64,000 nucleotides of DNA, taken from NCBI GenBank assembly GCA_032358255.1, contig JAULBX010021520.1, positions 1-64,000 of the forward strand, in the 5' to 3' direction. Origin of the DNA: Heterotrichella gracilis. Taxonomy: Eukaryota > Sar > Xanthophyceae > Tribonematales > Xanthonemataceae. The stretch's first letter is position 1; the number at the start of each line of letters is the position of its first letter. Of this stretch, positions 1,031 to 61,799 are shown piece after piece. Made by a program: the position numbers and the translations under genes. The notes below the pieces were generated by a model. That model saw nothing but the letters and a program-made list of their open reading frames with translations. It made no database searches and was not told where the DNA came from.

Positions 1031-4000
1031 CTACCATCCCCCTCGCCACTTGCCCCACACCACCCGCCCCACCACCACCGCCATGGCAAAGCTGGCGGTG
1101 ATGAGCACCCCCCCCACCAGCACCCCCTGCTCCGCTCCCGGCTGCTCCTCTTGAAACAGCGACAGGTGGGGGCTAGAGGTTGGCCAGTCACTCTCCGCCC
1201 ACACAGGGTCATCAGGCCAGCCCAATGCGGCCTCCCAATCCTGCAGGTGGTGGGTGGTGGGGTGTCAACCAAGTGTGCGAGTGGGGGGGGAGAGGGAGGT
1301 GGAGGGATGCGTCAAAAAGGGGAACTGTAAATCCCTCATGCGCCAAGACATAAACCGCTACTAACCCATACACATGGGCCACAGTACACAGTCCAAATCT
1401 GGAACCCATGCCCGTCCCACCCCCTCCCCCCCACTCTACCCTATGTATTAAATCCACCCAACAATCCCTGGGACGAAGGACAGCGCCACATGACCCCTAG
1501 CATGGCCTTCCATCAACCCCCTGGCACTCTAATTGGGTGGAGTAGGATGGCAAGCTACACACACTGGCCGCACCAGCACCCAGACCCTGATGAGACCCTA
1601 ATAAACCCCCGAAGAAAGCAAGTCCGAAGCCCATATGCTCACCTGTGACGCGTTGCTGATCTGCCAGCGCCATATGTCCCCTAGCGTGGCATCCCCATCA
1701 CACCCCTGGCACTCCAGTCGAGTAGAGTAGGAGGGCACATAGCGCACGCTGGCCCGCACGCACCGCCCAGACCCTAAGGGTTTTGGCAGGCCCGGTCGAA
1801 ACCCTAGGCACACGGATCCAGGGGCGCACTTGGCGCGGTAAGGATCGCAGCCCGTGGATTGGTTGGTGCCTGCAAGAAGGTGGAGGTGGTGGGTTGTAAG
1901 GGAGAGGGGGGTTGCGGTATGTGTGCAACGGGGAGGGAAGGGGGGTTGGGAGGTGGGGGTGTGGGGTGCTCACGGGGAAAAGATAGCGGGATGCGGCGAG
2001 CAGGGAACCGGGACGATAACAGAATGAGGTTTGCCAATAAAAGAATGGGGAGGAAATTGGTGGGTAGAATGGGGGGCGCGCAGGGAAGCGGGTAGGGAAA
2101 TATGGTTGCATTTGGTGCATGGCGAGGCGTGATTGTGTAAGTGGAGTGGAACGCCACACCCTAGTTCTTTACCAGTTGAGAGGGCCATGCGGAGCCCCTA
2201 GCCTAGGTTTTGGCCAGTAGAAGTGCTAGGGTTTACACATGGGCGGGTGCTGTATATCTATTGTTGCTACAACGGTGCCTCCATGTCCAGGATTTAGGCA
2301 TTTAAGGTTTTTAGCTTTTCACCACCGGGTTCTGGTATGCACCTGATGCAGCCTTGAGCAGGGCCCGCAGCCAACCAGGTTGTCAGCTATTGCCACGAAA
2401 ATAACTCCAAACAGATTTCCACGTCTGGGGATGGTCCTGAGATGAACTCTGCGCCCTAACCCCTGGGATCCTCGGTCAGGAACTACGCTCACGTAGCGAT
2501 CCGCCGCACCATAATCTAGGGCTATAGAGCTATCGCAGTAGGGTTGTGGGTGCGCACCTGCTGCGCCCTCACCAGGGCCTGCAGCTGTCTTGCTGGCCAA
2601 GTAGTTCCACAAAAACCGCTCCATGTTATTCTTCACATTTGGGGATGGGTCCTGGGGATCCCCAGTGGTGGTCCGCAGCACGCTCACGTAATGCTCCGCC
2701 ACCGTCCCGTAGGCGGTCATGAAACCCTTAGCTAGGTCACACCCCAGCCCGGGGTCCTTCTGCACCAGGCACTGGAGGAGTGCGGTGACCTCCCCTTGCA
2801 CTTGTGTCACGTTCACCTGGAATTGGGAGGAGGTTTGGTGTGAGCAAGGTGGATGACACGTCCTCACTGTTGTAACGGCCTTATATTCCTTTGAGCAGCA
2901 GCGCCGTTACCTCCCCTTGCACACATGTCACATTCAGCTGGGTTGGGGGAGGGGGAGAGGTGGCAAGGTTGACCAATCTGTTGCCGTTGGATTTCTTGTA
3001 ATATTAATTAGGCATGTGGTGCGGGCACAAGCACCACTGCTGCCGCTGCGATACACATAGGCGATGCATTACTGGAAGACAACACAGCAAAGCAATCCTC
3101 CTTAAAACTCACATTCAGCCTCTTCCGTCACATTCCCACATAAGATCCCGCACCATCTCTGCCCTCTCCTTACCCAGAGCATGCAGCGCGCGCACAAGTA
3201 CCCCCGCTGCCGCCACTATGGCTCCAGGCGATATCCTACCCTGAAAACCCTGATCAGAAACACCTTGCCCTTGTGCCTGGAAACCCGCCATCATGCCAAG
3301 CTCTTCCCACACTTGCAATTTGCTTCTATCCCCCACATAGACACCCACCTGCAGCTCCGGCACCTCCCCCGCCCCCTCCATAGCCAGCGCATGCAGCGCG
3401 CGCGCAAGCACCACAGCCGCCGCTGCTATGCTGTGGGGCGATACGTTGCCCGCATCGTCGAATCGGCTCTGATACACCTTGCTCTTGTACCTAATAACAA
3501 GCAGAGCACGCCAAACGGACATGAAAACCATCTATCACAGAGGGGGATGTTTAAAATACGCAGCAATCAAGGCCTCAAGCTGTTGCAGGAACAACCAGAG
3601 ACCTGTTAAAAGGACAAAATGTGTTTCATTTATCATCCATTTCCTGGTATTGCACAAATGGTTTTTAGGGTTTGCCAGCAGATACCAGCTCAGAAATTGT
3701 GCATAAAAAATGCAGGATCTACAGGGTGGGGTCCGTGGTGGTTGGCGTGCACATGTGCAAGACTGGACGCTACCCTGGTGGTACCGCTGGATTGCGTGTA
3801 GGCGGCAAAATTGCTCCTAGGTTCCTCATCTGGCTGTACTGCTGAAATGCACGTAGCCAACTCGCTAGCAGGCAACCCTGGACTCAGATTCGGCGAGTAC
3901 CAGTGCTGTCAGGGGGCGCACCCTGAACCCTAAACAGCACGTTAACCACATCCTTAGGTGCATGCATGTCATCATGCATTATAGTGTACCTCTGGCTGCC

Positions 4001-7000
4001 AACGTGGCTGTACCGCTGAAGTGCATGCCTACCAGCTATTGCACTGGTGGTTGTGCCCACCCGCTGGAATGCATGTAGCCAACTACCTTCTGGCTGGCTG
4101 TATCACTGGAATGCATGCAGGCCATGCTGGCCAGGTACAGGGCATCCCTGCAGCTGTAGACGGTGACGGCTAGGGTGCGGGGTAGGGTTTGGACCAGGGT
4201 TTGGGTAGGGTTTTAGGGTCTTTTGGACTGCACCGGAGTGCCTATACTCAGCCAATCTAGTCCTGGCTGTACTACTGGAAGGCATGCAGCCAACTGCCTT
4301 CCAAACTAGTGACATAACTGTACTGCAGAAATGCATGCAAGTTACAATCGAACATACCTGGACTCGAATTCCGTGAGCAATAGCCCTGGTAGCTGGTCAG
4401 AGGGTAACCCTAAACCCTAGATAGCCAGATGATCCGTCAGACATCCACCTTAAACCCTAAATCAACCAACATACCTCGACTCAAACTCAGTAAGCACTAC
4501 TCCTGCCAGGGGGGGCGCGTTATCCAGTGCCTGGTGTGCGCGTAGGAAGGAGAAGAGCGAGGAGGGGGGGGGACCTGGGGTGCCGCTGCGTACCGCGCGC
4601 ACCTGGTGGGGAGTGGGGTTGGGGATTAGGGAGAAAGGTGGGGGGGTTTCAATGCGTGGGTACCTCGTGAGGTGGGTAGGGCAGGGGTTAGGAGTGTGCG
4701 GGGGAGGTGAGGATTTTGACGCCGTGGGGGTGAAGACCAGAGGGTGGATGGGCTGCACCAAAGCTGTGGAGTTGGAGGGTGTGGCTGCTGGTGCGCGTGA
4801 GATGTTGCAGGTGTGTGATGTGCAGTCGGTGCAACCCCAGTGGACAGTGGCAATCGCAAACTCTAATGCCCTACAATGCAATATTTGACACCTACAGCTC
4901 AAACCCTAAACCCTACAACAAAAACTCTAACACCTGCAGCGCAAACCTAGCAACCTCCCCCCCCCCGCGCACCTCCACCTCCACTTCGCTGGTGTTGGCA
5001 GCCGCCTCTTGGAAAACCCTCACCAGGGTATTCACCCCCGCTGCTTGGTTGCGCTCCCTGTGCATGTAGAATATCGCACCCGTACCCTCCCCTTTGTCTT
5101 CACCTATTGCGCGCCCCACCTGACCCACCTCCACCACCTGTACGCCACATTCGAATCAGAGGTCTAGGGTATACGGCGGTGTTTTGGGAATCAAGCTAGG
5201 GTTGCCTGTCGTATGGTACCGTCCCCATGCCTTGGCCTAATGCGCGCCCCACCTGATCCATCCCCACCACCTAAACACAAAACTGGGGATTTAGGATTTA
5301 CGGCAGGGTTTAAGGGTGTGCGCTGGGGTGTTGTACTTTTGCACTGCCCGCCCTGGCCCTGGCCCACAGGCCATCCCAGCAACAGGCCCTGCAATACCCT
5401 AATTGACAACCCCCTTCACCCTGTGTGAGCCAATCCATGCTTAGCCCAGGCGGCAAATCCCCAGATCCCAAATCCCCAGCCAATTTCCCCCCCGGTGCAC
5501 CACACACACCATGCCATTGTCACCTCGGCTACCCACACACCACTCTGCCACCAAAGCGTGGCCTATCTGACAAACAACCCCCCTCCATCCCTCCCACCCC
5601 CAATTCCACCCCACCCCCCACCTGTGCGATCCGTTCCATCCCCAGCCCCCGCGCGGCGTTTCCCCCATGCTGTACATCCCAAACCATGCCCTTGCCACCC
5701 TCACCTATTCAACCAAACACCCTCTGTGAATCGACCTAAACCCAAAACCCCCATCTCGATTCTCGCTTCCCCCAAATACCCCCCACCAAAAAAGAAAGAT
5801 CAGCATCCCCCCACCCCACCTGTGCGATCCGTTCAAAGCTTAGCCCCCGAGTGGCGTTCCCCCCCTGATGCATATCCCACAGCAGGCGCTTGGATCCCAT
5901 GTAACCCCACGCCTCCCCCGATAGGGCGCACCACACCAGGTGGCGGCGATACTGGGGGGCAAAACCAGAGGAGGAAAGGATGTCGGCTGCTGCCAGCATT
6001 GCTATGAGGCCTGACAGGGGGGCATTGGCACCCTGCGCAATGGGGAGGAAACGGGCGGTGGGTGGTGGGTGGGTGGAGGGCTTTCGATATAATATAATAC
6101 GAAATTGGATAGGTTCCTTGCCCAACATACTTCAGTTTGCGGTGCTGGGGAAGAGTGGGCAGGGACAACGCAGTGAGGGTGGGATGGGGTTGGCAGGGGG
6201 GTAGGGATTATATTTAGGGTTTTGGGTCACACATTCCTTGCCACACCCCTCACTCCCTGTACCCCTAGAACCACACCATGTCTTACACACAACACATTCA
6301 GTGGGATTATGCATCCAAACACACGGCATCTTGCTTAACCCTGGATCAAAACCAACATCCAGGCACCCCACCAGCAACCAAAGCCACGCATTGCAGCAAC
6401 AAGAAAATAAATATCTGCATGCTAACATGTCACACACCACCAGCACGACAACAGCAATCTTCAAGGCAGAGTGCTGCAAGCCTCCCGCTTCCAATGCCCA
6501 CTTCATGCATGTCAACCCCTCCACCTCCCCTCTCCAGCCCAATGTGCCAAAACCGTAAGCCCTAGACCTTTGTGCCAAAACCCTAAACCCATACCATCCC
6601 CTCCCCCGCCCCATACCTGCGCCTGGTAGTTGAAGAACGCAGCAGAGTCCATTGTACCCACCACCAGCACCACCGGCATGCCATTCCCCTCCCCACCACC
6701 CCCACCATCACCACCATCAGTCTCTGGCAGTGGTGGCTGTGCCGCCCACACGCTGTTCCCCCCCAGAGGCTTGCACGTGTGGCGCGCCAGGCAGTTGAGT
6801 GAGGTGCTATGTGCCGACATGGTCAGCTCCATGCGTGCCATGTGGAGGGGGCCCTGGTAATCCTGAGGTGGTGGGGAGTGGGGGGAGGGGGTTGTGCGGG
6901 TGTATGGTGACATGGGGTTGGAGATTTGGGGGGCCTAAGGTTGGAGGATATGCGGGGATGTGTGGCGCACCAGGCAGTTGAGTGAGGTGCCATGTGCTGA

Positions 7001-9317
7001 CATGGTCAGCTCATTCGCGCCATGTGGAGGGGCCATTGGTAATCCTGTGGGGGGTTGGAGAGCAAGATGAGAGGATACCCATACGTGTGTGTAGCTTTGA
7101 TGGTAGTGGTGGCAGAGGGAGGTAGAATTATGCAGGAAAACGATGAAGTTCTTTGGGGCCCGTTAGGGTAAGTGGGGCTGTTAGGGTACTAATGGGGCAG
7201 TTCACGTACCCTGGCTGCATTCCTGCGCCCCCGGTGTAGCGCTGCAAGGGAGGTAGCGTTGTCGAGCAAGAAAACGGGGAAGGGGAACATGTGCGAGCTG
7301 ATGGCGCTCCCGCTGGGGTTCCAATCAAAACCCTTCTCAGGGTATGGCGCAAACTGGGACTGGGGGAAGCGCTCGGCAGGCGAAAACTCCTCGGGCCGGC
7401 CTGTGGGCACAGGGTTTAGATTAGGGTTTGCGGCTAGGGTGGGCAGTCAGGGGAAGCGGTTAGGGTTGCGGTAGGGTTTGGGTTTGAATGTGGTGAGTGT
7501 GGCACCATCCTTTGTGGTGGAGGGTTTACGGTTAGGGTTTGGCGTAGGTGGTGCAGCCCCGTGCATCATGGGGTTTGTGGTTAGGGTTTGAGTAGCAAAC
7601 CCTTTTAGGGTAACGGTTTGACATTGCAGCCCACCACCACCACCACTACCACTGGGCCCCACCCACATCCACAACCCCACCACGACCGCCCCACCTGTCT
7701 GCACCAGCACCCCTTCATCAGCCCCTGCAGGGAGCGGTAGCTCATCCATCAACCCCACCATCAGCCCGACCTGTCTGCACCAGCACCCCCTTCAGCAGCC
7801 CCTACAGGGCTTCCGGCTCATCCAACCCACCCACCACCACCACCACCACCACCATCACCAGCATCAGGCCCCAAACCACCACCACCCTCCACCGCGCCCC
7901 ACCCACATCCACCACCACCACCGCCCCACCTGTCAGCACCAACACCCCCTTCACCAACCCCTGCAGCGCCTCCGGCTCATCCAGCCAGCGCTCCAGGAAG
8001 GGTGCCAGGTCACGCGCAGCCACCACCACTGTCACCTGGCCTGGGAGGGGGGGGAGAAGGGTGTGGGTATGCTGCTGGGGGTGGGAGGGTAGGGTTTTGC
8101 AGGCGTTTAGGGTTTAGGGTTTTGCATGGCGTTTGGACGGAGTGAGCCCCACGCGTAAACGGGCCCTGATCACTGTCGTTGCACTGTGGTTTGGTCTCAC
8201 AGTTATTTACATTGCGGATAAGACAAATCCTCTTTTATGCTGGGTATGGCCATGGTGCACTCACGCGTGTGGGAGGCGGGTGAGTGGCGATGAATTTCAA
8301 CATATGAGGGAAGTATGGCAGGAGGTGGGAGGGGGGTTGAGGGGACTGCGTGTGCATGCACGTGTGGGTGAAGTGGCGGGTGTATACCAACGCATCTGGC
8401 AGCTCCTGGAGCATTGTTCCCATTTTGAACAGCGACGCATTGACCTTCTCCTTGCCAAATGCTGCAGGGCTTCAGGTTTAGGGTTTGATTTAGGGTATTC
8501 GCCGCACCTGGCAGCTCCTGCAATACTGTCTCCAGCTTGAACAGCGGCGCGGTCACCTTGTCCTTGCTGGGGGCTGCGCATGGGGTTGGTGGTCAGCAAC
8601 ACGCACATCGCCATTGTGACAAACCCTAAACAAATCCATGATCAAACCCTACAGATACCCTAAACCTTTAACCCTAAACCTATTAACAGCGCGAAGCTCA
8701 ACCTGCTAAGAACGAAAAATGTATAATAACGTTTGGCACCCGGTTCGATTCTTGCATGCAGATTGGGCATGACAGACGTTTGGCATACAGAGGGCATATG
8801 CTCATAACTGCACACCCCACGTCCCCGCGTTGTTTATTGCACAATAAAGCGTGGCTGTCCTGCATACAGCCAGTTTACTGCCTATACCCACATTGGACGT
8901 AGGGGGTTAGAGCTAATCTGCACATCCACCTCCCCTTGTGCAAGGCGCAGCTTTAACCAGGCGGGCCCCCCCTGGGTTGTTCTAGGAAACCCTGTGCAGG
9001 GTTATTGTGGTCCCACAGGCAGATACCTATCTCTATCAAGGTGCACCCTATAAGGCGCAGGATGGGGTATTGGCTTGTGCACACTGCCTGTGCAAGAGAG
9101 GGGATTGGGTCGTACCTGCACAACCCACCTCCCCTTGTGCATTGAGCAGCTTGAAGCAGGCGTCTCCCCCTTGCATATCCTGGTACAGCAGCTTCTCAAG
9201 CGTCTGGGAGGAGGATATCACCCCAGTGGTGCCATCTGACAGCAATTGCGCACTCATCACCACCCACACCAGCCCCATGACCGAAGTGCAAAAGAGCCAT
9301 GGCTTGACCAGGGCCAT
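1031..9317 (-). CDS. NCSTN: Nicastrin, gamma-secretase substrate-receptor subunit
   Basis: Twelve exons on the minus strand: 9317-9116, 8573-8508, 8040-7930, 7400-7210, 6862-6617, 6032-5820, 5137-4973, 4602-4475, 3490-3349, 2816-2573, 1773-1643 and 1240-1031. Together they give 682 aa, close to plant nicastrin. The protein starts with a signal peptide (residues 1-23), followed by a Cys-containing segment typical of the family start (DACFKLLNAQGEVGC). Exon 4 has FSPAERFP and FPVFLLDNATSLA, exon 5 CKPLGGNSVW and GTMDSAAFF. Exon 6 carries the peptidase-like core, with E312 and GYMGS at 315-319 matching the DYIGS region. Exon 11 has RYVPSYSTRLEC. The last exon has DDPVWAESDWP and one membrane span (about 652-674) before a short tail. 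Nicastrin is the glycosylated ectodomain subunit of the intramembrane gamma-secretase protease and acts in the secretory/endolysosomal membranes. The exon 10 donor is ambiguous: GT at 2572 or at 2557 keeps the same phase. The introns contain decayed copies of nearly every exon. Confidence 0.93.
1497..5695 (-). repeat. Further nicastrin pseudo-exon copies in introns
   Basis: Partial copies seen: exon 6 3' end at 5617-5695 (GMVWDVQHGGNAARGL) with a poorer one near 5490-5520; exon 7 start at 5213-5270; exon 8 3' end at 4346-4395 and 3883-3925; exon 9 at 3160-3290 with a remnant near 3020-3090; exon 10 5' end at 2898-2940 and its 3' half at 2385-2520; exon 11 at 1497-1595. Each sits in the intron next to its parent exon. 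CCCTAAA or TTTAGGG heptamers occur between several copies. Confidence 0.72.
6961..7053 (-). repeat. Decayed copy of nicastrin exon 5 5' end
   Basis: It lies directly upstream (in transcript sense) of real exon 5 (starts 6862) and begins with an acceptor-like CAG followed by GATTACCA, as the real exon does. It continues through the segment encoding MELTMSAH..SLNCL but has lost one base, which breaks the frame. Confidence 0.8.
7690..7830 (-). repeat. Two decayed copies of nicastrin exon 3 3' end
   Basis: Just downstream of exon 3 (8040-7930), two successive segments read on the minus strand as LDEPEAL*GLLKGVLVQTG and MDELPLPAGADEGVLVQTG. They match the exon end LDEPEALQGLVKGVLVLTG and are followed by the same GT-rich intron start. 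A stop codon or indels show they are not coding. CCA/GTG microsatellite sits between copies. Confidence 0.78.
8396..8465 (-). repeat. Decayed copy of nicastrin exon 2
   Basis: On the minus strand this reads like exon 2 (8573-8508): GKEKVNASLFKMGTMLQELP against SKDKVTAPLFKLETVLQELP. The position of the donor GT is GA here, so it should not be spliced. A similar remnant of the exon 1 end lies at about 8910-8975. Confidence 0.8.
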
Positions 9318-10145: not shown

Positions 10146-13100
10146 ATGACGTTGTTCGCCGCAACCCGGCGGGCCCTGGGCCAGTTGAGGCCCAGTCAGC
10201 TTGTCGTAAACCGGGTGTTTCAGAGCTCTGCCGATGCGGGGCAGCAGGCCCCCAAGGCGGTGCCCTTGTCCAAGCTGAAAGACAGCTTCATCGATGGCAC
10301 CAGCAGCGCCTATCTGGAGGAGCTGGAGGAACGTTACAAACACGACCCTGGGAGCGTGGACAAAACCTGGGCCAGTTTCTTCAGGAGCCTGGGTAGGTCT
10401 CCGAGTTTTGTCGTTGTTTTGGAAAACGGCTGAGTGCGCATGGTGGTCTGTATTGACTGATGTGCTGGGACCAGGTTTTTCATGTTATGTGCACTTGTTT
10501 GTTTTGCTTGCGACTCTGCAATTAACTGCTTGGATGCTGCCCCTGCTCCAACGTAGTACTCTTATGACTTATCTAGTGCTTAGTGCACTAGAACATTTTG
10601 TTAAGCTGATCGGATGCTTACTGGTGCTCGAGATACTATGGCCTAGTATTGTTACCTCCTGGTTGACTGTTCTGGGTCTTTCCGTTATCTTGGGATTTGG
10701 CTGGGTACTTTTGGTGCAATGGCTGGTTTATGTATCACTTTGCAATGGATGCACCACCAGGGAAGCTGCCCCCGTTTGTGTCGCCTGTGGGTAGTAAGAA
10801 CCGCACTTCACTATGGGGACTCACCAGTACCCTTATTTACTTTACGGGGAGTGTTTTGGGGAGTGGTTGGTGTCCTACTGAGATGGTGGCTATTATTTAT
10901 CTTCTTACTGTTTCCTGGGTACCTTCATTGTCAATTGAATGGGATGGGTCTGTGTCTTGGGCAGAGGCTGGCGTGCCTGCTGAGGCTGTGGCTGAGGCCT
11001 ACCACGAGTTTGAGATGGGGCGCACCTCCTCCCCCCTCACCATGGCGGCGGTGTCAAACCAGACCATCCAGGAGAGCATGAAGCTCATGATGCTGGTCAG
11101 GGCATATCAGGTAGGGAAAAGAGGCGCACTCTGGTGATAGAGGGAGGGTGTTGGGTGTGGGATGAGGGCATATGGGGTTAGTGGGTGGGTGGGGGGGTTC
11201 ACGGCTGGAATGTGGTTAGCGGACTTGTACCCAGGCCCACCGTGCATATGCATGCATATGATGGGTCGCTTGTATGGGTGTTTTCGAATGCCTGGATGGT
11301 TGTTCAGAGCGTTGCATTGCCATTCTGAGACGTGAATTGGGTGTGCCCTATCTATTCGCCTGGGTAGAGTTAGTGGGCACTGAAAATGCGAAGCCGCCCT
11401 TTTTCCCTGTGCGCCTCGCCAGATGATATGACTGCAACCGTCCAGCACGTCACCGATTAGCCCCAAAGCTTTGGTCCTTGCACCCGATGTGGTGTCCCTG
11501 AAAGCATAGCAGACACCCTAGCTGGGGCAGAGTTTCCAGGACTAACCCATTGCCTTGCCCTTGACCACCAACTATCCACCCCCTCTATCCGCACCCATAA
11601 CAACCACCCATCCGGGCACTGGCCCACCTCCATTGCAGGTGGGGGTCATTACAGCGCCATGCTGGACCCCCCACCATTGCCCTCCTTTCGTGTACCTCCA
11701 ATTCCCCCGCCACCAGCCACCACACCCACCACCACTACCTCTTGCAGGTTGGGGGCCACTACAGCGCCATGCTTGACCCCTTGAAGCTTGAGGCGCACCC
11801 CACCCGACCCGGAGTCACGGAGCTTGACCCCGCCTACTACGGATTCACAGAGGCGGACCTCAACAGAGAGTGAGTACAGCTTTTGTACATGGAAGGGGTA
11901 ATTCAGGCAATTGTGTAAGGGTAGCTAGGGTGTGCGCTAGGGTTCACAGGACCTGCATACTGTGGGTTCACAGAGGTATGTAGTACCGGTTGTGGCTCCC
12001 ATGTCAACATCTGGTCCCTTCCCCACACCGCACATTATTGGAACCAACCCCACCAGTTCATCCGCTTCCTCCCCATTCATTTGACCCACCCCGCCCGCTG
12101 CTTCTCACCCCCTCTCCCACGCCCCCCAGGTTCTTCATCGGCACCTGGGACATGGAGGGTTTCCTTTCCGAGGGGCGCCCCATCCGCACCCTAGGGGAGA
12201 CGGTCAAGCGGCTGCGGGAAACCTACTGCGGCACCATTGGCTATGAGGTGAGTGGTAATGGGGGTTATGGTTAATCTGACATGTTACATACAATGGTACT
12301 ACCCATGATATGTAAGCACGGGAAGAGGCACGATTGGTTAGCCACCATCTGCCACATTGGAAAGTGGCAGTGTCAGTCAGGCCTTGCGTCTTGGACTGGG
12401 GCGAGGCATACCCAGGCATGCTAATCTAGCTTGTAAGGCTGGAATGCACTTACTTATGGTGCGTAAACAACGCTGCCCAACCACCGCATGGGTACATAGT
12501 GCATACAATTTTAGCGGCTGCAGTACTTGTTGGGCAATGAGGAGGGGAGCGGGCAGCGGATATGCAGCTGAACAGAAAAGATCCGGCTGTGCCGCCGCCA
12601 CCCACCCTTACCACCCGCGCCACCACCACCATACCCCCGCATTGCATGCAACCCTCCAAACGCCACATTCGTCGTGGTAGGAAAATCCCAGTCCATTTTT
12701 GACACCATTGAGAATTGCCCAAAGTTTGCCTCCCACCCCCCGCAGTACATGCACATCCCCGACCGCCACATGTGCAATTGGCTGCGCGCGCGCATCGAGA
12801 CCCCCGAGCAGTACTCCTTCTCGCCCAAGCAGCGCCTCAACATCCTGGACAGACTGGCGTGGTCCGAGATGTTTGAGGCATTCCTGGCAAACAAGTACAG
12901 GTGGGTGGCGCAGGGCAGGGCCTGTCAGAGGGTCTCGTCAGAATCATAAAAGACGGGGGGGGAACCAATGCCATGTCAAATGGATTGTTTTTGCACACAC
13001 ATGAAAACAGCTCAGCTCAGTTTGGTGACTTTTCCCTGCAGCGCCGCCAAGCGCTTTGGGCTGGAGGGTGCCGAGGCGCTTGTGCCTGGACTCAAGGCGC

Positions 13101-16100
13101 TCATCGACCTGAGTGCTGACCAGGGGGTGGACAGCGTGGTCATCGGCATGCCGCATAGGGGTGGGTGGTGGTGGTGGATGCCTGTGGGTGGGGGGGTGGG
13201 GGAGGGAGGGGTTGGGGGTGGAGGGGGAGGGGGTGATTGGCATGTCGCACGGACGTGGGTGGGTGGGTGGGTGGGGGGTTGTAGGTGTGGTGGAAGGGGG
13301 TGGTGGAAGGGGGTAGTGGGAGTGCACATGCACCTACGATGACTCCCCGTTTTTGCACCCTATTGTACTTGCATGCCATTTTGAGCCCTGAGCGCGCGTT
13401 GCTACTGATCCTACCGCAACGTATTACCGCCATGTGGTACCGCTGAACTCCAGAACCCAACCCCCAACCCTCCCCCTTGCAGACGACCCCTAAACCGTAA
13501 GTGTTGAACCCTTAACCCACTCTGCAGGTCGCCTGAATGTGCTCGCCAACGTGGTGCGCAAGCCCATGCGCCAGATCTTCAGCGAGTTCAGCGGGGTCAA
13601 GCCGGGGGCAGGGGGAGGGTACACAGGCACAGGTGAGGGTCAAGAGTGCCTAGGGTTTTGGGTTGTTGTGCTTAGGGTCTGGGGTGCGATCTAGGTTGAT
13701 TTGGGGGTGGGGGGTGTCTAGGGTCCGGGGTACTGTGCCCAGATTTCTATAAAGTGGTGCGCAAACCCATGCGCCGGTCCTTCAGCATGCTCAAGATTGG
13801 GGTACACCGGGAGGTGATGGTGTGAGGACGGAGAGGAGGACAGGTGAGGAGGGTTTGTGAGCGGGGTTAGAGATTAGGCGTCGCCGCCTAAAGTCTGGCA
13901 GGATTTTTGTTGGTAGTTTGTCTGGTCATCTCAGCAAGTTTTGGTACTGATCCTGGGAATTCTCGCCCACCATATTCGCCACCCCCCCAATTGGGGCAAA
14001 TCTGTCGCCATCCACCACATACAAACACACTCACTAAACTTCCACACCCACCACTGCAGGCGATGTGAAATACCACCTGGGCACCTCCTACGATCGCCCA
14101 ACCCTCTCTGGCAAGCGCGTGCACCTCTCCCTTCTGGCCAACCCCTCCCACCTGGAGGCAGTCGACCCCTGCGTGCTGGGCAAGAGCAGGGCCAAGCAGT
14201 ACTACATGGGCGAGGGGGGGCGCACGCGCGTGCTGCCACTGCTGCTGCATGGTGATGGCGCCTTCTCGGGGCAAGGGGTGGTTTATGAGACGCTGGATAT
14301 GAGCCAGCTGCCTGACTATACCGTGGGGGGCACCATCCATGTGGTGGTCAACAACCAGGTGGGTGTGGTGGTGTGTTGAGGTGGGGCTGTTGATGTTAAT
14401 AGTGGGGTGGTGGCGGTGGTGGTGGCGGTGGCGGTGTAAATTTGGAAGGGGTGGTTGAAATGAGGTGCTGGATATGAGCCAGGTATTTTACTACATGGGT
14501 GTTGCTTGTACCATGAACCATGGCCTGGCTTTGAACCCTAACCCAGCCCTAACCCACACTTCCAATCCCCAGGTTGCATTCACCACGGATCCCAAGAAAT
14601 CCCGGTCCAGCCCCTACTGCACCGACGTGGCCAAGGCGCTCAACGCACCCATCTTCCACGTGAACGGGGATGATGCGGAGGCGGTGGTGCGGGTGTGCGA
14701 GCTGGCGGCCGAGTGGCGCCAGACATGGAAGAGCGATGTCATTGTTGACCTGGTGTGCTACCGGCGCTATGGCCATAATGAGATCGATGAGCCCATGTTC
14801 ACCCAGCCGCTCATGTACAAGGTGGGGTTTTAGGGTTTAGGGTTTATGGTATTGGGCTTAATCAAAGGGTTTGAATGGTGGGGGTCTCGGGAGTTGGAGG
14901 AGTGGAGGTGGTTTGCAGGGGGACGGGGCCGATAGGGATTGTACCAGGGATGCTAATTGCGCTATGGGCACAATGAGATTGGTGAGCCCATGTTCGCGCA
15001 GCCACTCATGTACAAGGTGGTGTTTTAGGGTCGAGGGTGGGTATCGCCTGCTGTCAAGCTTTGGGAGGGTGGAGGCGGATGGGTGCATGGGGTAGGGGGC
15101 AGAGTGGCGCCAGTAGCCCTGCTCAGCAGATCAGTGCAAGCCGCGGCGGGTAATTCTGTCTTAATCTTATTCAATTCTTTTTCTGTCTTTTGCAGGAGAT
15201 CCGCAAGCACAAGAACCCGCATGACATCTATGTGGAGCGTCTGATGAGGGAGGGGGCGGTGACAAAGGAGGAGGTGAGCTGTTGTGGAGGGGTGGTGGCT
15301 TGCCCGGGAGTAAATTTATATCTAAAATTTAATTCGGGTTTTTAAGCATAGTCGTGTTACAATTTCATGTGGCTGGGGTGTCAACTGCTTGCAGCCAGCA
15401 AAGGACAATGCGTGTATAATTGCCATCCCTCATCAGCCACGCCACAATGCACCACCTCCACCACCCACGCCCACGCCCTCCCTTCAACCCCAACCCTGTC
15501 ATTTCCAACCCCTGCTTTCCTCGTCGCCCATCCCCAGGTGCGCAGCATCCACGACGCTGTGCAGAACATCCTGCACACCGAGTTTGAGGCCAGCAAGGAC
15601 TACAAGCCCTCACCCGCAGACTGGCTGTCCAGCCATTGGGACGGCTTCCTCAGCCCCAGGCAACTGTCGCAGATCCGCAACACAGGTGCGGCAGGGGTGG
15701 GGTAGGCCTGCAAGGACATTGGTAGGGTTGTGGTAGGCCTGCACCGACCCTGGTATCGTTGTGGTAGGGTATCTGATAGGGTTGTAGGCATTCAGGGATG
15801 CGCCGGCAGTTTGGCTGTCCAACCTCTTGGAATGGCTTCCTCAGCCCCAGGCAGCTGTCGCAGATCCGCAACACAGGTGGGGCAGGGTTTTCGGGAGGGT
15901 TTTGGGTTTTTGGAGGGTGTAGACAGGCACCCCAAAGGTGAATGGGGGTTTGTGTACTCTACTGTGTTTGTTTGGTGCAAGCCGCTGGGATGACTCCATC
16001 CCACCTGGTGTGCAACAGAATATTGTGAAGGAGGTGAGCGATCATAATCCATGATGATCAACTCATTTCTTGCTTATATGATTGTCCGTTCCCTTGTGCA

Positions 16101-41785: not shown

Positions 41786-41812
41786 ATAGAGATCATGCTC
41801 TAGTGCGCCAGG

Positions 41813-47837: not shown

Positions 47838-47970
47838 GAATGCATGGAGCGGTCCATTGCTAGGCGCGTAGCCATCTCTCAACGGTGCTCCCATCGCCCT
47901 CGTAACTTACGGGGGCAGTGTACCCTTGACTGGTGGCTATGACCCAAGCAACGGTCCGCTCCATGCACTC
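47838..47970. repeat. 133-bp foldback
   Basis: Outer arms of 24 nt (gaatgcatggagcggtccat... and ...tccgctccatgcactc) pair with about three mismatches. The interior of about 85 nt has further weak self-complementarity. Confidence 0.8.
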
Positions 47971-48623: not shown

Positions 48624-48767
48624 GTGGCATCGCATCACTGCGCAGCATGCCAAATTTGGATGCAGTGGCTGCATCGCACATATCCCTGCTCATGCTGTAA
48701 CCCAGATGAAAATACCAACAATGTGTGTGGCATGCTGCGCAGCAATGCGATGCCACACACATTGTTG
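48624..48767. repeat. Composite foldback with two alternative stems
   Basis: 48624-48652 pairs with 48728-48756 (27 of 29). In addition 48716-48733 pairs perfectly with 48750-48767 (18 nt, 16-nt loop). The right arm is shared, so two mutually exclusive hairpins are possible. Confidence 0.85.
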
Positions 48768-49910
48768 ACATGTTCACCTGTGCTACAGCACGAGCGTGAA
48801 AATTATCAATGCAGCCACCCATAACTTGCCAAAGTGGTAGAAAAGATGCCTTGGCAATCTGTCAAGAGCCTGCTTGGGTACCTGTTGGCACAGTGCGTCA
48901 ACAACTACCAGCCAGGCTTTTGAAGAGCTGCCAAGGCACCTCCTCTACCTCTTGGCTGGTTGGTTCGACATCAGCAACCCACCTGGTGGGGTGGGTGGGG
49001 GCTAGTCCAATGGAGTTGCATGCAACTGGTTGCGTTTGTTAGACCATAGGTGGCTGTTGAGCAATGTCACTGCATGGCACCACTTACCAGCTATGAATAC
49101 ACTCAGCCCTAAACCCTAAAAAAGCTCCAAGATGCTTCTTTTCCCTGCCTCAAGACCGTTTGTTGGCTCGCTGAGGGACGCCTTGAGAGCTTGTGGATGA
49201 GGCTGGAGTAGCTGCGCTGGCCTCCATCTTGCCAGCATGGGACCAGGTATGGTTTCATGCGGGCATGGCCATGGGGGTTGGTAATCCACGTGGTGTTTTA
49301 TGCAATAGTATTTTAGGTGTGTAAAGTGTGCATGCAGAGCGTGCCACTGACTTATCATGACAAAATGGCCCATCATGACAAAATGGCCCGACGGTCGTAC
49401 TTGCAGGACTTGCTTTGCTGGCCAGGCAAGAAGTTGCATTGGATGTCACAGACTTTGTTTGGCTTGCACTGCATTGCATTGCATTGCGCGTTTGCCTGCA
49501 CTGCATTGAATGTTTGCCCAAGGCTGTAGGTGGTGACTATCTTGCCCCTGCCTTCCAATGTAAAAGCTTACTGCCAACATGGATGACATCTGCGTACTAC
49601 CAACCCTGGCTAGCCACTGGCAGGCCCTGGTCAAATGATCAGAGTCAGGTTAGAGGGTAGTTTCAGAGGTTTGTTTCATTCAATGAATATGTCTGTGGTG
49701 GCAGCCTGTTTGGGTATCAAATCCAATCGGATGACGGTGTTTGAAGTGAACGTTCTTAAGTTATTTATTATTATTTAATTAATTTATCTACTAAGTTTGT
49801 TTATTTATCAACGCAGATGACCTCCCACCCGACGAATAAGGGCAGGCAACCCCAGTCTAGAACCAGTTCCAAGGCGCTGGTCAAGGTGAGGCTGAGCACT
49901 GAAAAGCAAC

Positions 49911-50706: not shown

Positions 50707-50939
50707 CTGGCAGAACCAGGATCGGGTCCTCGATATCTGGAGAGTGCAGGGGAATGGTATATTGGCTCATCAAGCTTCGCGGCTCGTGCTGCATCCTCCG
50801 AGCCGGCTACAAGAGGATCTTGCAGCAGCCCCGGAGGATGCTGCAAGGCCCGAGAAGCTTGATGAGCCAAGATACGCATTCTCCTGCAGTCCCGGGAGGC
50901 TGAATCCAGACACGCAGGACCTATTTATGGTTCTGCCAG
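50707..50939. repeat. 233-bp imperfect foldback spanning an open frame
   Basis: The outer arms ctggcagaacc/ggttctgccag and the strong inner stem 50762-50777/50855-50870 (ttggctcatcaagctt and its complement) frame a nearly continuous imperfect duplex. Open frames on both strands give similar peptides (ILAHQASR, PEDAAR, KLDEP). A plus-strand frame from 50744 runs past the foldback to 51130 without stops, but no family is recognised. Confidence 0.9.
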
Positions 50940-52050
50940 TCACTGCTCCATCGCGCTTTGCCCTAAAGGAGGGTTTGAGGCGGCTTGGCGGCCTCTCTGT
51001 GATCCCGCAGGATGCAGTATTTGCCACCTGGGAGTCCATGTCTGTGCAAGAATTGGCTGTGACGCTGCCCTCCATGGACCCTGCAAGGTACGAGAGATGG
51101 ACCATGGTAATTGCACTTGGGGCGCCATAAGGATGACCCAAGCCTGCTTCAAATTTGAAATTTGAAATTTAATCCTTCCACTCAACACGATGCCATCATA
51201 ACGATTCTAGAAAACCGACATCTGTGCCCAATGGCAGATTTCTGCGCTGAAAATCGTACATCGGGCAGCGCCACAGCATGTTGGTCTTCATAGTACTTAT
51301 GATGTCACTGTGCTGGGGAGAAGGTTTTGGAAGTTGACGGTCAACTCTCTTGGCAGTTTCTGGAAACCAAATCGTGCATGCACCCATTTCCTTGTTAGAC
51401 ACTGTCAACACCTGTCACATAGCAATTGGCACAACTTTTTGAACGCTGCAACTGTACAGCCTGCGCCCTAGTTGCAGATCTGAGTCCTGGGGCTAGCTTC
51501 ATGCCATGCGTGACACTGCAGCTCAGGTACACTGTTGAACACAACTCCTCCTCTTCCCACAGGTGATGCAGCAAATGCAAGTGGTACAAGTCGCTGCTCA
51601 AGCTGTATGAGGGCTGACTGTGCACAAGTATACCTGTAGATGCACACATGCAGCCATTGCAGACAATCACCACTGGCAGCACGTTGCTGACAGTGTGCAG
51701 CATGCCACACACGTTACTGGTGTTTCCATCTCTGACTAATTCACCTGTACACCCAAATTAGCGTGCATCATGTACATTTCAAACATGCATTGGACTAGCC
51801 AGAGCAGGGGCGCCTCACAGTATCAGGAATATCAGGCGCCAATACTATCCATTTATTGAATTCCTTGCATTGTGTCCTACTCAATTTGAATTGGGAATCA
51901 AATCTCTGTCGGCAACAACCGTAAAAATGCGTACCAAACTGGCTTATGTGTAGAAAGGGTGTCACACTTGTCCTGCTTATATGCAGTGTGGTATGCTTTT
52001 CTACGTTTTGCTGACAGAGACTGGACCTTCACTTTGAATTGAGTAGGGCG

Positions 52051-52224
52051 TATGTTGCAGAGATGAGGAAACACAAGTTGCCCTGCTTTTCAGTGGGGTT
52101 TTTTCTTGGTCAAGAACTTTCAATGGCAAATTTTGGATTTGAGATTCAGAATGTGCCATCGGGAGTCTTGTGCCACAGAAACCCCACTGAAGAGCAGGGC
52201 ATCTTTCTTCGTCTCTGCAACATA
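52051..52224. repeat. 174-bp imperfect foldback
   Basis: Arms start tatgttgcagag and end ctctgcaacata. Pairing includes 'ttgccctgcttttcagtggggtt' against its complement near 52175-52203 and continues inward with mismatches, leaving a short terminal loop. The length and the single dominant stem resemble a plant-type small-RNA precursor or a miniature foldback element. Confidence 0.88.
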
Positions 52225-53397: not shown

Positions 53398-53533
53398 CAG
53401 CAGCCCCAACAAGGCTACTGTATGTAGCGTGGCAAGCCTTGAATAGGCACATTCTACTGGTCACTTGGCCATGGAAAATGTGCCCATTAGAGGGTTACAA
53501 CGCTACATACGGTTGCCTCTGTGGGGACTGCTG
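53398..53533. repeat. 136-bp foldback
   Basis: 'cagcagcccc...ctgtatgtagcgt' pairs with 'acgctacatacgg...ggggactgctg', and an inner pair (ggcacatt/aatgtgcc) extends it. Coding potential is absent. Confidence 0.85.
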
Positions 53534-54025
53534 CGAGAATTCCCATGATGCCATCCCATGATGGAACCGTGGTGCTGTTGTTGAACCCTGGATCCCAAAC
53601 CCTACACCCTACACACAAGATGTCTAGTTGGTGGTTGCCCTCCTAGGCATCATACATTAATATTAAAGCCTCATGAACACCCCCTAAACCCTAAACCCTA
53701 AACACACCTTTGATCAACCCCTACACCCTTCAGGCAAGGCTACACAGCCATCCCACCCGCCCCTTCGGGGGGTGCTTCGTCATCCTTGGCAATCCACCTC
53801 AAGGCAGGCTGGTGCTTCAATGCCATTGTACGGGTCACATTATGCTCTTGATTTTTAAGAGCGCATGATTTGTACTATGGCCATTTGGTGCACCATCCTG
53901 TCTCGAGGTTGACTGTCAAGAACTGCGCGGGCACCCGCGGACGGGGCGGGAGGGGTGGCTGTGTAGTCTTGCATGGAGGGTGTAGGGAGTGGGGTGTATA
54001 ATGGAGGGTTTTGTGTCTGGTTAAA

Positions 54026-57022: not shown

Positions 57023-60000
57023 CTAAACCCTTAATCCAGGCTGGCCTTGCACCAACTCCCATGCCTGCTGAGCAATGGACAGCTCCTCATCGGTGGGTAT
57101 CACAAGAAGCTCAACGGGGGAGTTGGGGGCTGCAATGCTGCCCGCTGCTCCCCCCACCATGGCCTCATTCTTTGCCTCGTCGAGCCGGATGCCCATACCC
57201 TACGCAAGGGTTTTCAGCACCGATTCAGGGTTTGTGACAGGGGGTAGGGGTTTGTGGGGTGGTGCTGGCCAGAGATTGGGGTAATGTTAACGTTCACACA
57301 CCACCCTGCTCAACCAAAGGCCTTGTTCATGGCCTCGCCCACACCCTATGCAAGGGTTTCGGGGACCAGTTTCCGCGTTTGTGGGTGGTGCAGGCCATGC
57401 ACTGAAGTGGTCACCTACTTGCTGCCAAACTTTCACATTGGATATAACTCAGCATCATGTGCACAAGGGTCAACTTCCAGCAGGTTTTCTCGCAGGGTTT
57501 CCTGCCCAATAACGTTTCCTTGTAGGGTTTTAATATAGGGCTTCAGACCCGCACATCCAGTCCCTCCAGCACCATCCTGCGCATGACCGAGGAATTCTCC
57601 CCTACCCCCGTGCTGAACACAGTTACCCTAACCCTCAGGTGGAAAATTATGCAAGCCCCTAACTGAGTAGGGTTTCAATAGTAGGGTTTCCACGTAGGGT
57701 TCTCGCAGGGTTTTCCGTACCTCCAATCCCTCCAGCACCATCCTGCGCATGTTCGAGGAGTTTTCCCCTACCCCCGCGCTGAACACTATTGCATCCACCT
57801 TGGCCCCAAGATGCACCCAGTATGCGCCGAGGTACTTGCGTACGCGATGGACATACACCTGGGGACACAGGGAACCCTAGCTTAAGGTTTGATATTGGCC
57901 TTTGATGCACAGGCAGGGCCTTGAACAGGGTTTGCATGTCAACAGTTTACGGGGTTTCACATAGTATATGCGCCCAGGCGCTGCAGTGGACGTGTACCTG
58001 CAGGCACAGGCAAACCCTGGGTTAGGGTTTGTATGGCCATAGGAGAACCCCTTTTTTAGGATGTACTTGTGAATCAACATCCTACTGATGCACCCAGATG
58101 CTTGCAGTGGACGCACATTGTAAAGCTTGAATCCTAAACCCTAAAAAATAGATCTGGGGACCACACGCACGCATACATATATGTACACACAAAAAGACTC
58201 TTCATAAAATAAGCCCCCCATGACAGCCCTGGCGCACCTCCATGGCCAGTTGTGCCCTTTCCTCCCCCTTGGCCGCACCCTCCATCACTGTGCGCAGGTC
58301 CCCACTGCCAGCCACCCCCAGCAGCCCGCTCTGCTTGTTGAGGAGCTTGTCAAGCTGCATGAAAGGGGGTGGTGGTGGGTGGTGGGTGGTGAGTGGGTGA
58401 TCCAGATTACCCCGGTGCGGACATTTTCAGGATAGAGTTTTGGAGTTGCATGCAGAGTATTATGTTCAGGGAAATTGGAGGAAATTTTTCCTCCAATCCC
58501 CTGGGGCTATAGCAACTTTCAACCCTAGCCCCTCACCTGTGCGGTGCTCATGCCCAAATTGTCTTGGAGGTACAGAAGCACTGCCGGGTCGATGTCTCCA
58601 CACCGGGTGGCCATCACCAGCCTGCAACATTTAAATAAGCGTTTCTATTCTCAATAATAAGGGTTTTCATGAAGCCCCCATTTGGATTGGGTGGCCATCA
58701 CCATGGGATGCCGTTGTTTCCGGATGGAGAAGCACTGCTGGGTCCAGTCGACTGGTAGCCAGCCAGCCTGTGCCATCCACACAGGGAAATGCAAGGGATG
58801 CGTGAAAACGCGCGTGGAGAAAATGGATCCAGGCGACCCCTGCCAATACCAGCATTCCTATTCCAATGTACATTTAAGAAATTTGAAGCCATGCGCTGTT
58901 GTGTTACCCACCCCCTGGTACCACTTACCCTTCCAAGGGGGTCATCCCCATTGAGGTATCGATACATTCCCCCCCTTGGATGGCGCACATGCTGGCCCCC
59001 GCACCTGCAACCAGGGGGGAGTAGATACAATCAAACATGAATCATGTTACATGGGAGATATAGAAGATTCCAGGCATTCCCTGGGTTCTGAAAGCCATAG
59101 CGGCCTCGATGCCATGCGCCTTGGCATTTAGGGCCATGAGGGTGTTTTTAATGCTTTTCCAGCGTTTTCTACGGGGAAATCGTACCCAACCCTACCTATG
59201 TGGCATGCGATGATGTTGAGCTCTCGAGCGGGTTTACCCAGCATGGCCGCCGCCTGCATAACCAGATACAGGTAGCTGCTGCTTAGGGCAATTTGAAAGA
59301 TTCTTAGAATTTCCACTGAATTCCTGTTATTCCCTATATGTATGACCCCCCAACCCCTTCACCTTGAACCCCCAATAATCCCCTACCTATGTGGCATGCG
59401 ATGATGTTGAGCTCCCGCGCCGGTTTGCTCAGCATGGCTGCCGCCTGCATGACTAAATAGAGGTAGCTGCTGCCGTGGAAGCCATAGCGCCTGATGCCGT
59501 GCGCCTTGGCTAGTTCCCGGGGCAGTGCGTAGGTGTAGGCATGGGGGGGCATGGTTTGGTGGAAGGCGGTGTCAAATACCGCAACCTGAGGGGTTAGAGA
59601 GGGCGGATTTAGCCACCTACATGAATCAGCCAACCAATCACCCAAAAGGCACCAGAATACACACTTGGCACGTTTCCCTATGATACCCAAACATTCAAGG
59701 GCCCCTACCCCCTTCAAATTTGGCTGGGCCCCATAGTGGTGCATAGGTGTAGGTGTGGTGGTGCATGGTTGGGTGGAGCAGTGCAGCTATGGAACTTCAA
59801 AGATATGTCAAACACTGCAACTAAAGAGGTTCAAGAATGTGTCGATACAACTACCACACCAGCACACATCAGATACACACTTGCCGCCCACACACCCCAA
59901 GGAGGTCTTGGCAGCTGCCTATATTTTCCCAAACACACACCACCACCACCCACCTGTGGGCACCCCGCAAAGATCTTGGTCGCCGCCCCTACCCCCATCC

Positions 60001-61799
60001 ACGGCCGCACACCACCACCACCACCACCACCACCACCACCACCACCACCACCACCACCACCACCACCACCCACCTGTGGGCACCCCGCAAAGATCTTGGT
60101 GGCCGCCTCCACCCCTTCAAGGTTGGCGGGGTTGTGCAGGGGCGCAAGCGCAGCCGCATCCTGAATAGCAGCCCTCACCCCCGCACCAATGAGCACAGGC
60201 TGGCTGATGTCCTTGCCATGCACAACCCGATGGCCCACCACGCGCATCTCTTGGGCGATGCTGCGGGTGTGGGGGAAAACCCTAGTCAGAACCCTAACAC
60301 ATGTGCATGGCAACCGCGTCCTGGAAGGCCGCCCTCACCCCCGCGCCAATCAGCACTGGTTGACTTACGTCCTTGCCATGCACAACCCGGTGACCCACCA
60401 CGCGCATTTCCTGGGCGATACTACAGGAGGCAGGGAGACAAGCCTCTAGTGAAACCCTACTGATGCCGTTGGAAAACCCTAATGTCACACTAGTGAAACC
60501 CTAGGGTCTTTGCCGTGCACCACCCGGTGGCCCACCACGCGCATCGCTTGGGCGATGCTGCAGGTGTGCAGGAAAACCCTAGTCAACACCCTAACACATG
60601 TGCATGGCAACCGCGTCCTTGAAGGCCGCCCTCACCCCCGCGCCAATCAGCACTGGTTGACTTACGTCCTTGCCATGCACAACCCGGTGACCCACCACGC
60701 GCATTTCCTGGGCGATACTACAGGAGGCAGGGAGACAAGCCTCTAGTGAAACCCTACTGATGCCGTTGGAAAACCCTAATGTCACGCTAGTGAAACCCTA
60801 GGGTCTTTGCCGTGCACCACCCGGTGGCCCACCACGCGCATCTCTTGGGCGATGCTGCAGGTGTGCAGGAAAACCCTAGTCAACACCCTAACACATGTGC
60901 AAGGGCAGTCACGTCCTGGATGGCTGCCCGCACCCCAGCACCAATCAGCACAGGTTGGCTTATGTCCTTGCCGTGCACAACCCGGTGCCCCACCACATTT
61001 CCTGGGCGATGCTGTGGGGGTGTGGGGAGAACACACAGCATTTAAACCCTAGCCAAAACCTAGCTCCATTGCTCTGCTGGTTGTGCAGCAGAGCAGAGCA
61101 GCGCTGGTGCATCCTGGATGGCCACCCCCACTCCGTCCCTAGCCGAACAAACCCTAGAAAACCCTTACCTTGCCGAGCACGTGTCCTCAAGGTGCGACAG
61201 CAGCAAATCCAACCCCACTGTGTAGTTGGGGATCCCGACCTTGTTCTCGTGTTTCTCGGAGGCCTTGCCATCCCCGTCCAGTTTCTTGGTTGTCATGCTT
61301 GAGCTCCCCACATTGCCAATCTGCTCGAGCAACCCACTGATGCTGGCACGCAGGGTCGAACCTGAACCCCAAAAAACAAAACAATATATTATTATGTATT
61401 ATTATAGAAAAAATAATAATAGTAGTATTATTATTATTATTATCACTGGGGTGCGAGAACATTAGGGGTTTGTCAGGACGCCAAAGGGACCTTTGCAGTT
61501 GATTAGAGGGAGAAAAGAAAAGGTGACTAGGGTTTAGAGTGTAGGGTTTAGGGTTTAGGATCACACCTGGTCCCATAAGGACAAAGAGCTTGAACTTGGG
61601 TGTAGGGTTTAGGGTTTACGGGTTTTGGTTTAGGGTTTATGATCTCCCCTGGTCCCACCACGTCAAAGAGCTTGAACTTGGTTTAGGTTTTAGGTTTTAG
61701 GGGTTTAGGATTTGGGATCGCACCTGGTCCCACCACGTCAAAGAGCTTGAACTTGAGGGAGGAGCTGCCCGCATTGATGACCAGCACGCGGGACGCCAT
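57023..61799 (-). CDS. ACK: Acetate kinase
   Basis: Nine minus-strand exons, 61799-61724, 61361-61169, 60260-60074, 59585-59387, 59004-58929, 58621-58537, 58354-58238, 57858-57721 and 57199-57023, keep the frame and give 415 aa (family about 400). The ASKHA-fold landmarks are present: [17 protein letters not shown] at the start, [58 protein letters not shown] (bacterial enzymes usually have GNG here), [53 protein letters not shown] and [12 protein letters not shown]. The enzyme interconverts acetate + ATP and acetyl phosphate + ADP, with phosphotransacetylase as usual partner in algal fermentation. The first ATG has an in-frame TAG upstream and no transit peptide follows, so this form looks cytosolic unless an extra 5' exon exists. 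The stop codon is read within a TTTAGGG run. Confidence 0.95.
60010..60072. repeat. (CAC)n microsatellite at acetate kinase intron 3 donor
   Basis: About 20 CAC units lie on the plus strand immediately inside the intron, so the transcript reads CAG|GTGGGTGGTGG and on. A copy of the exon 3 end lies on its far side at about 59955-59995. Confidence 0.92.
60292..60885 (-). repeat. 297-bp tandem duplication upstream of acetate kinase exon 3
   Basis: Position 60301 corresponds to 60598 (offset 297), and the two units differ at only a few positions. Each contains two copies of the exon 3 start (CATCGCCCA.. or the variant encoding IAQ(E/A)[13 protein letters not shown]) with acceptor-like CAG or TAG. 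A further copy lies at 60905-61015. Including the true exon at 60260, six versions of this exon start occur within 760 bp, separated by aaaccctaa-type spacers. Confidence 0.92.

Follow-up and report, generated by a model that had tools for sequence, protein, structure and literature searches.

Our results confirm that the edges of exons have been copied into the adjoining introns of Heterotrichella gracilis, and that such copies are widespread in its genome. The stretch analyzed here, called the window below, is a 64-kb sequence (C216 of a 68.5-Mb assembly with 903 contigs). It carries genes for nicastrin, OGDH, asparaginyl-tRNA synthetase (AsnRS), a serpin, a glycosyltransferase-like protein, and acetate kinase, and self-BLAST recovered copies in all six of them, as the initial annotation of this DNA had proposed. 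The duplicated edges show polarity and neutral-type divergence and are concentrated at the boundaries of predicted exons. They are also associated with telomere repeats and come in two size modes, two features that the initial annotation had overlooked. We propose, with about even confidence, that the repair of breaks at intron edges bearing telomere repeats duplicates the exon edge, with or without filler DNA, and that selection filters the products.

Besides the window, twenty 10-kb stretches were taken from other contigs. Nineteen of them (190 kb) were kept, giving 254 kb in total, while L016 (G000:C145:20001-30000) was left out for its GC content of 36% and its open reading frames (ORFs) of bacterial type. 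L001, which falls within the window, pairs spaced more than 600 bp apart, and predicted genes with fewer than 250 coding bases were also omitted from the counts. All exons and introns are those predicted by a self-trained hidden Markov model (HMM, fixed-signal version) without RNA data. The HMM merged OGDH with AsnRS and the serpin with the glycosyltransferase-like gene, and it appended doubtful exons past acetate kinase; the limits at these places were then set by hand. Some copies were also mistaken for exons, and such decoys split introns and raise the intron denominator.

Self-BLAST of the window and the 19 loci (E ≤ 1e-5, spacing ≤600 bp) yielded 170 direct repeat pairs, a count of pairs and not of events, and the median repeat length was 95 bp. 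At E ≤ 1e-8 the window alone gave 72 pairs, of which 57 were direct and 15 inverted. When the 19 loci and the first 60 kb of the window were taken as 25 ten-kb pieces, 164 near pairs were direct versus 1 non-palindromic inverted pair, plus 27 palindromes, and no near pairs appeared in dinucleotide-shuffled pieces or in 50 kb of E. coli DNA. At least one pair was present in 17 of the 19 sampled loci, with a range of 0 to 26 per 10 kb, so the phenomenon is widespread yet uneven; in two of these 17 loci the sole pair sits within one predicted exon. Duplicated stretches were detected in 28 of the 65 predicted introns of the six genes and in 91 of the 302 predicted introns of 100-1500 bp in the window and sample. 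The earlier statement that most introns hold copies was thus too strong at the threshold used. The graded decay it described is evident, since identity runs from 98.9% (18378-18469 versus 18512-18603) down to ~66-70%.

The position of the copies relative to their exons follows a simple rule. Once 28 pairs that overlapped no exon by 20 bp and 3 pairs with both copies in one exon had been removed, 139 pairs of the 170 remained, among which 111 involved the near exon edge only, 14 both edges, 12 the exon interior, and 2 the far edge only. Where one exon was the unambiguous parent, the near edge was copied in 89 pairs and the far edge in none. This bears out the claim that copies of an exon's 5' part lie upstream of it and copies of its 3' part downstream. 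Both sides were used, with 59 downstream and 48 upstream copies among 107 pairs with a single exon parent. Such polarity reflects selection, because any tandem duplication spanning an exon-intron boundary must leave it if the gene survives.

The surplus copies also diverge as expected of sequence free from constraint. Pairs were classed as complete units when the aligned part made up at least 85% of the spacing, and as spacer pairs otherwise. Mean divergence in the spacer class and in complete units, respectively, was 0.175 and 0.169 at synonymous sites (pS), 0.065 and 0.053 at non-synonymous sites (pN), and 0.147 and 0.159 in non-coding sequence, which fits neutral decay of the surplus copy. 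The pS/pN ratio of 2.7-3.2 against about 2 leaves a modest unexplained excess. As both classes are diverged to a similar degree on average, greater age does not by itself explain the spacer class. An identity gradient along the copy was looked for and not seen.

The observations above would also be accounted for if ordinary small tandem duplications arose uniformly, selection purged those hitting coding sequence, and those touching exons stayed recognizable, with exon edges and telomere repeats having no causal part. Polarity would then follow automatically, and the rate of copy divergence is compatible with it. However, the share of pairs at exon edges is too high. Among 96 non-overlapping pairs with spacing ≤240 bp (39 complete units and 57 spacer pairs), an exon was touched by 31 of the 39 and 49 of the 57, that is, by 80 of the 96. 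Uniform placement with coding-disrupting units removed predicts a share of 0.29, or 0.34 if whole-exon units are allowed, so the 29-34% that would touch an exon edge by chance falls well below the observed value. Intron-internal duplications should have been visible, and detection bias should be limited, because the aligned intron parts of complete units, which have similar synonymous divergence, are only ~16% diverged and still match at ~84%. The systematic self-alignment therefore upholds the view that copies are commoner at exon boundaries than elsewhere. Exon edges are hot spots beyond uniform placement, with an exact figure weakened by the use of predicted exons, some of them decoys made by the copies. 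Uniform duplication is rather unlikely for this reason, and the insert sizes and telomere words described below count against it as well.

The internal structure of the pairs shows that more than plain tandem duplication is involved. At ≥88% identity and ≥40 bp, 30 of 35 pairs had an aligned part shorter than 85% of the spacing and thus contained an unduplicated spacer; this set includes a few multi-copy arrays and one triplet repeat. Simple tandem duplication is ruled out for all pairs together by these spacers at high identity. The earlier proposal of tandem duplication across exon-intron boundaries stands insofar as the copies are local, direct (164:1), polarized (111:2), and diverged in a way that fits neutral decay, and in its plain form it fails for many pairs. 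In the spacer class, 39 of 53 cases lost similarity no more than 25 bp from the splice site (median 13 bp), while 1 of 28 complete units did so (median 116 bp), a contrast that arises partly by definition.

These features recall a staggered break with filler, in which two nicks tens to ~140 bp apart, one of them just inside the intron, would be filled in, leaving the exon edge on both sides of new DNA (a telomerase product or other sequence), like a long target-site duplication. The 30 spacers among the 35 high-identity pairs and the 39 of 53 edge pairs ending near the splice site would be expected from it. Two spacers were searched genome-wide and both matched themselves alone. One pair of 98.9% identity has a telomere-like spacer, and insertions of telomere repeats with target-site duplications are described for mammals (PMC2246262). 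In contrast, 39 of the 96 non-overlapping pairs are complete units, and some similarity (p < 0.05) was kept in 21 of 71 intron-side flanks compared with 5 of 71 exon-side flanks. Part of the filler may therefore be diverged duplicate, a point that also bears on our own proposal; by our reading of the list, many of the 21 similar flanks are multi-copy arrays or telomere-like. The staggered break with filler is rather unlikely.

Insert length, taken as the spacing, had modes at 103 and 200 bp in 124 non-overlapping pairs of ≤300 bp, a set that includes 47 kb of extra loci. Bimodality was supported by a Silverman test (p = 0.006, 500 bootstraps), which was picked after inspection of the histogram. 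Two modes count against uniform duplication. They are also awkward for the staggered break, since they appear in the sum of copy and spacer and independent filler would blur them. A link of the modes to nucleosomes is speculation.

The abrupt loss of similarity near splice sites would also result from exchange with a diverged homologue (an allele, a strain, or a hybrid) whose exons match and whose introns do not. Differences at third codon positions are indeed in excess in pairs of ≥86% identity (151 versus 59 and 45), but most of this excess comes from the comparison of synonymous change in two lineages with non-synonymous change in one, together with binning by identity. With the third-position excess largely explained in this way, the exchange was rejected. 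In addition, pS is similar to non-coding divergence and to the pS of complete units, and the best candidates in the assembly included no second allele of the acetate kinase region. We consider such exchange very unlikely.

A mobile introner-like element carrying the copies is more improbable still. The clustering of insert sizes would suit it, as would a piece in a predicted intron of another gene on contig C120 (L043, G000:C120:66102-66290), which matches an acetate kinase exon copy and its flank at 75%. However, the copies match the adjacent exon, and no shared element was recognized in the spacers: both of the two searched genome-wide were unique, and of 44 spacers compared with the 254 kb, 9 had local hits and 6 other hits, 13 having a hit in all and 31 none elsewhere. 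An introner-like source for the spacers thus found no support. The piece on C120 shares several changes with the intron copy and not with the exon, which implies that dispersed copying also happens. In a three-way comparison of exon, intron copy, and dispersed piece, with too few sites, the dispersed piece seemed more changed than the intron copy.

The introns of H. gracilis are rich in telomere repeats. Of the intron heptamers with 25 or more occurrences, the 14 most over-represented are the 14 AAACCCT/TTTAGGG permutations, at 7 to 18 times the dinucleotide expectation. The density of telomere hexamers is lower than in introns by a factor of 4 to 15 in exons and of 2 to 5 in intergenic DNA, and telomere words gather ~10-50 bp inside splice sites. 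At least one such word was present in 156 of 302 introns, against 68 (sd 6) after shuffling. Coverage by telomere words in copy-bearing introns was 2.4-3.7 times that of copy-free introns, and in the first 60 bp of the intron it was 11.8% with copies versus 4.3% without. Copy count and telomere count were correlated over the 25 ten-kb pieces (rho 0.65, p = 0.0005).

The association extends to the gaps between the exon edge and the copy. With length-matched intron ends from introns without copies as the control, 23 of 37 downstream gaps held a telomere heptamer (control 7.2, sd 2.5, highest of 500 draws 18), as did 15 of 38 upstream gaps (control 6.6, sd 2.4, highest of 500 draws 17). This enrichment is not accounted for by uniform duplication. 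In three places Tandem Repeats Finder reported tandem units made up of the exon edge and a CCCTAAA-type tract (28313-28545, 40666-40904, and 61528-61755), and duplicated flanks are clear in these degenerate tracts. Genome-wide, (TTTAGGG)4 had 209 overlapping matches and the reversed control none; many matches are internal, so that internal arrays of the organism's own telomere repeat exist, and others lie where contigs C70 and C140 begin.

Telomere-like words at intron ends might instead be selected splice signals unrelated to the duplications. Splice consensus elements include CTAAA/CTAAC branch-point-like motifs and pyrimidines upstream of the acceptor, and G runs after the donor. In agreement with this, C-strand words are most frequent 20-40 bp before the 3' splice site, G-strand words often follow the 5' splice site, and the words occur in copy-free introns too. 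On the other hand, words of both strands abound downstream of the 5' splice site, copy-bearing introns have 2.4-3.7 times more words, and perfect four-unit arrays lie at many internal sites. A purely splicing-related origin therefore appears quite unlikely.

Several results weigh against a causal role of telomere repeats and breaks in the process. The excess in upstream gaps is weaker, with at least one control draw above the observed count, and 14 of 37 downstream and 23 of 38 upstream gaps have no telomere word. Telomere words are also found in 93 of 212 introns without detectable copies, and the repeats may have another role, for example as splice signals. Of 15 distinct perfect four-unit arrays at internal sites, 7 lacked a flank repeat, 6 showed no more than short matches of 16-41 bp that we take to be telomeric, and 2 had repeats of 54-56 bp. 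Perfect arrays as the general nucleus of each duplication are thus a weak candidate, with flank repeats longer than 50 bp in 2 of 15. Moreover, duplication rate and ascertainment are hard to tell apart.

On balance, we favor repair of breaks at exon edges. A double-strand break, or an offset pair of nicks, would occur at or just inside the exon-intron boundary, most often where degenerate TTTAGGG repeats sit at the intron edge. Error-prone end joining or fill-in would then duplicate the exon edge, sometimes with telomeric or other filler between the copies, adding about 100 or 200 bp per step. Purifying selection would retain the events that leave one intact exon and a working splice site or stop codon, and because selection keeps one intact exon, copies of the 5' edge would come to lie upstream and copies of the 3' edge downstream. 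The surplus copy would then decay neutrally. In this scheme we infer breaks as the cause, telomere repeats as a source of fragility or an addition made during repair, and the repair pathway itself. A bolder version seems possible, if on the doubtful side: telomere repeats placed beside splice sites by telomerase or break repair would make exon edges fragile, cycles of breakage and fill-in would copy the edge outward in steps of ~100 and 200 bp, possibly set by nucleosomes, and introns genome-wide would grow from telomere DNA and exon copies.

The copies appear to lengthen introns and not to create them. None of 63 intron copies came within 12 bp of the opposite end of its intron, so intron gain was ruled out and lengthening of existing introns is the better description. 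Pooled introns with copies had a median of 382 bp compared with 301 bp without (p = 0.013), in line with the earlier view that copies lengthen introns. However, the difference stems from the sample (403 versus 291.5 bp, p = 0.009), and the window by itself shows none (373.5 versus 362 bp, p = 0.89).

Vaughn and Bennetzen reportedly proposed in 2014 that patch-mediated break repair makes tandem duplications in rice. New introns are known, or have been proposed, to arise from tandem duplication and from break repair (PMC3443670; PMC4974935). Intron gain by tandem duplication resembles the present case in that a segment is locally duplicated within a gene and the surplus copy is spliced out, whereas there the segment becomes a new intron and the copy should reach the far end (PMC3443670). 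In Daphnia, introns gained in break repair have, as here, copies of a piece of the gene on either side of the insert, but those short direct repeats flank a new intron (PMC3443670), while ours, with a median length of 95 bp, are located inside existing introns. According to one account, insertions in rice represent tandem or partly tandem duplications (PMC7407515). Their small local direct duplications, some with extra DNA and ascribed to offset nicks, are like the 39 complete and 57 spacer pairs found here, which are local, tens to hundreds of bp long, and complete or with added DNA. The exon-edge focus, the modes near 100 and 200 bp, and the telomere tie may distinguish our case.

In mammals, telomere repeats are inserted at double-strand breaks, occasionally with a target-site duplication, which was present in 6 of 130 interstitial telomeric events in rodents and in 4 of 25 in primates (PMC2246262). 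Telomere repeats at internal sites are common to both systems, and some of them may have a duplicated target here too; in contrast, the words here lie a short way inside splice sites, and 91 of 302 introns contain duplicated stretches. Short direct repeats of 4-30 bp near intron borders were reported in many taxa in 2025 (PMC11782384), and the copies here are far longer. Conspicuously long introns, with no known benefit of length, were described by Craig and others in relatives of Chlamydomonas (PMC8226300). No description of telomere-linked exon-edge duplication in introns was found among the papers listed in the literature searches, judged by title and opening abstract and with most subscription journals outside the search.

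The individual copies illustrate these patterns; features are given on the strand of their gene and were located by self-BLAST unless stated otherwise. The nicastrin-like gene (1031-9317, minus strand) was identified by Pfam nicastrin lobes and the gene model, and 6 of its 14 predicted introns hold copies. A downstream copy of exon part 1665-1775 lies at 1481-1588, and one of the 3' edge of exon 5820-6032 (parent 5807-5892) at 5609-5694, the latter in the window self-BLAST only and outside the 170-pair set. An upstream copy of the 5' edge of exon 6617-6862 (6960-7053; parent 6777-6871, 88%) reaches 9 bp past the splice site. The OGDH (E1 component) gene (10146-19941, plus strand; Pfam E1_dh and Transket_pyr; end set by hand) has copies in 5 of 21 predicted introns. 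They include a downstream copy of the 3' edge of exon 14573-14821 (14938-15038) and upstream copies of the 5' parts of exons 16921-17204 (16730-16797) and 18794-18962 (18628-18687). The 98.9% copy of exon edge 18378-18469 occupies 18512-18603, its similarity stopping at about the exon end plus GT, and it is separated from the edge by a 42-bp unduplicated spacer of degenerate telomere repeat (18470-18511).

The AsnRS gene (23637-29261, plus strand; PDB 6pqh and Pfam tRNA-synt_2; start set by hand) has copies in 5 of 10 predicted introns. The 3' edge of exon 27933-28089 is copied downstream at 28165-28246, and a complete tandem unit of 118 bp, a telomere-like tract plus exon edge, lies at 28310-28427 and is 97.5% identical to 28428-28545. 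Copies were said to follow the stop codon at terminal exons, and this is the case here, where the gene model places a copy of the terminal-exon end (29176-29270) past the predicted coding end (29399-29492), as well as in the glycosyltransferase-like gene, where terminal-exon region 41587-41785 is copied at 41798-41996 (90%), past the stop of the ORF ending at 41785. In the serpin gene (32936-35740, plus strand; Pfam serpin; end set by hand), 2 of 6 predicted introns hold copies, and copies of the terminal-exon end region 35685-35993 lie downstream at 35890-36262.

Pfam or PDB matches thus supported five of the six gene identities, while the glycosyltransferase-like gene (38544-41785, plus strand) is a putative assignment, two of its exons having no Pfam hit. 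Four of its 5 predicted introns hold copies, with upstream copies of the 5' edges of exon 39355-39613 (39165-39301, 86.9%) and of the exon starting at 41469 (41267-41394); the tract at 40666-40904 comprises 2.5 units of 96 bp. The acetate kinase gene (57053-61799, minus strand; Pfam acetate kinase; end set by hand) has copies in 6 of 9 predicted introns. Downstream copies of 3' edges are at 57549-57620 (exon 57721-57858, with AAACCCT words in the spacer) and at 59190-59282 (exon 59387-59585, 89%), where spacer 59283-59380 is one of those matching itself alone. Upstream of one exon in the sense of the gene, 2.7 units of 297 bp with copies of its 5' part extend over 60209-61010. At 61528-61755 the edge of exon 1 is copied twice in the order edge, CCCTAAA-type tract, copy, tract, copy, tract, with a period of 75.

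Other repeats were observed as well. Near-spacerless palindromes of ~77-275 bp, one of them 98.7% self-complementary, are bunched at 45-54 kb of the window, and self-BLAST placed them at 45927-46003, 47837-47971, 48665-48818, 50742-50891, 51876-52047, 52051-52224, 53398-53533, 53719-53987, and other sites. None of the 27 palindromes in the 25 ten-kb pieces overlapped a predicted exon by 20 bp. Outside the six genes, 43021-43777 and 43832-44646 form a tandem match of 829 columns at 74% identity. A distant copy (46116-46169 versus 57042-57095, 87%, 10.9 kb apart) takes in part of predicted acetate kinase exon 57053-57199. Long runs of the triplet (CAC)n/(GTG)n lie at 60010-60070 and 26314-26371, in sequence that the HMM called coding in acetate kinase and AsnRS. 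L016 holds long uninterrupted bacterial-type ORFs at its GC content of 36%, and the assembly seems contaminated with bacterial DNA. The assembly lists the same length, 99892 bases, for contigs C135 and C145.

The origin of intron length and sequence is mostly unexplained. Exon copies mark the orientation and approximate age of each insertion, so that intron growth could be read event by event. They also act as decoys that mislead gene prediction, as happened with the HMM here. If the bolder version of the proposal is true, it would be a general and still active mechanism of intron lengthening. If telomere repeats by splice sites are the cause, this one genome would tie together telomere biology, break repair, and gene architecture, in steps that could be counted between strains.

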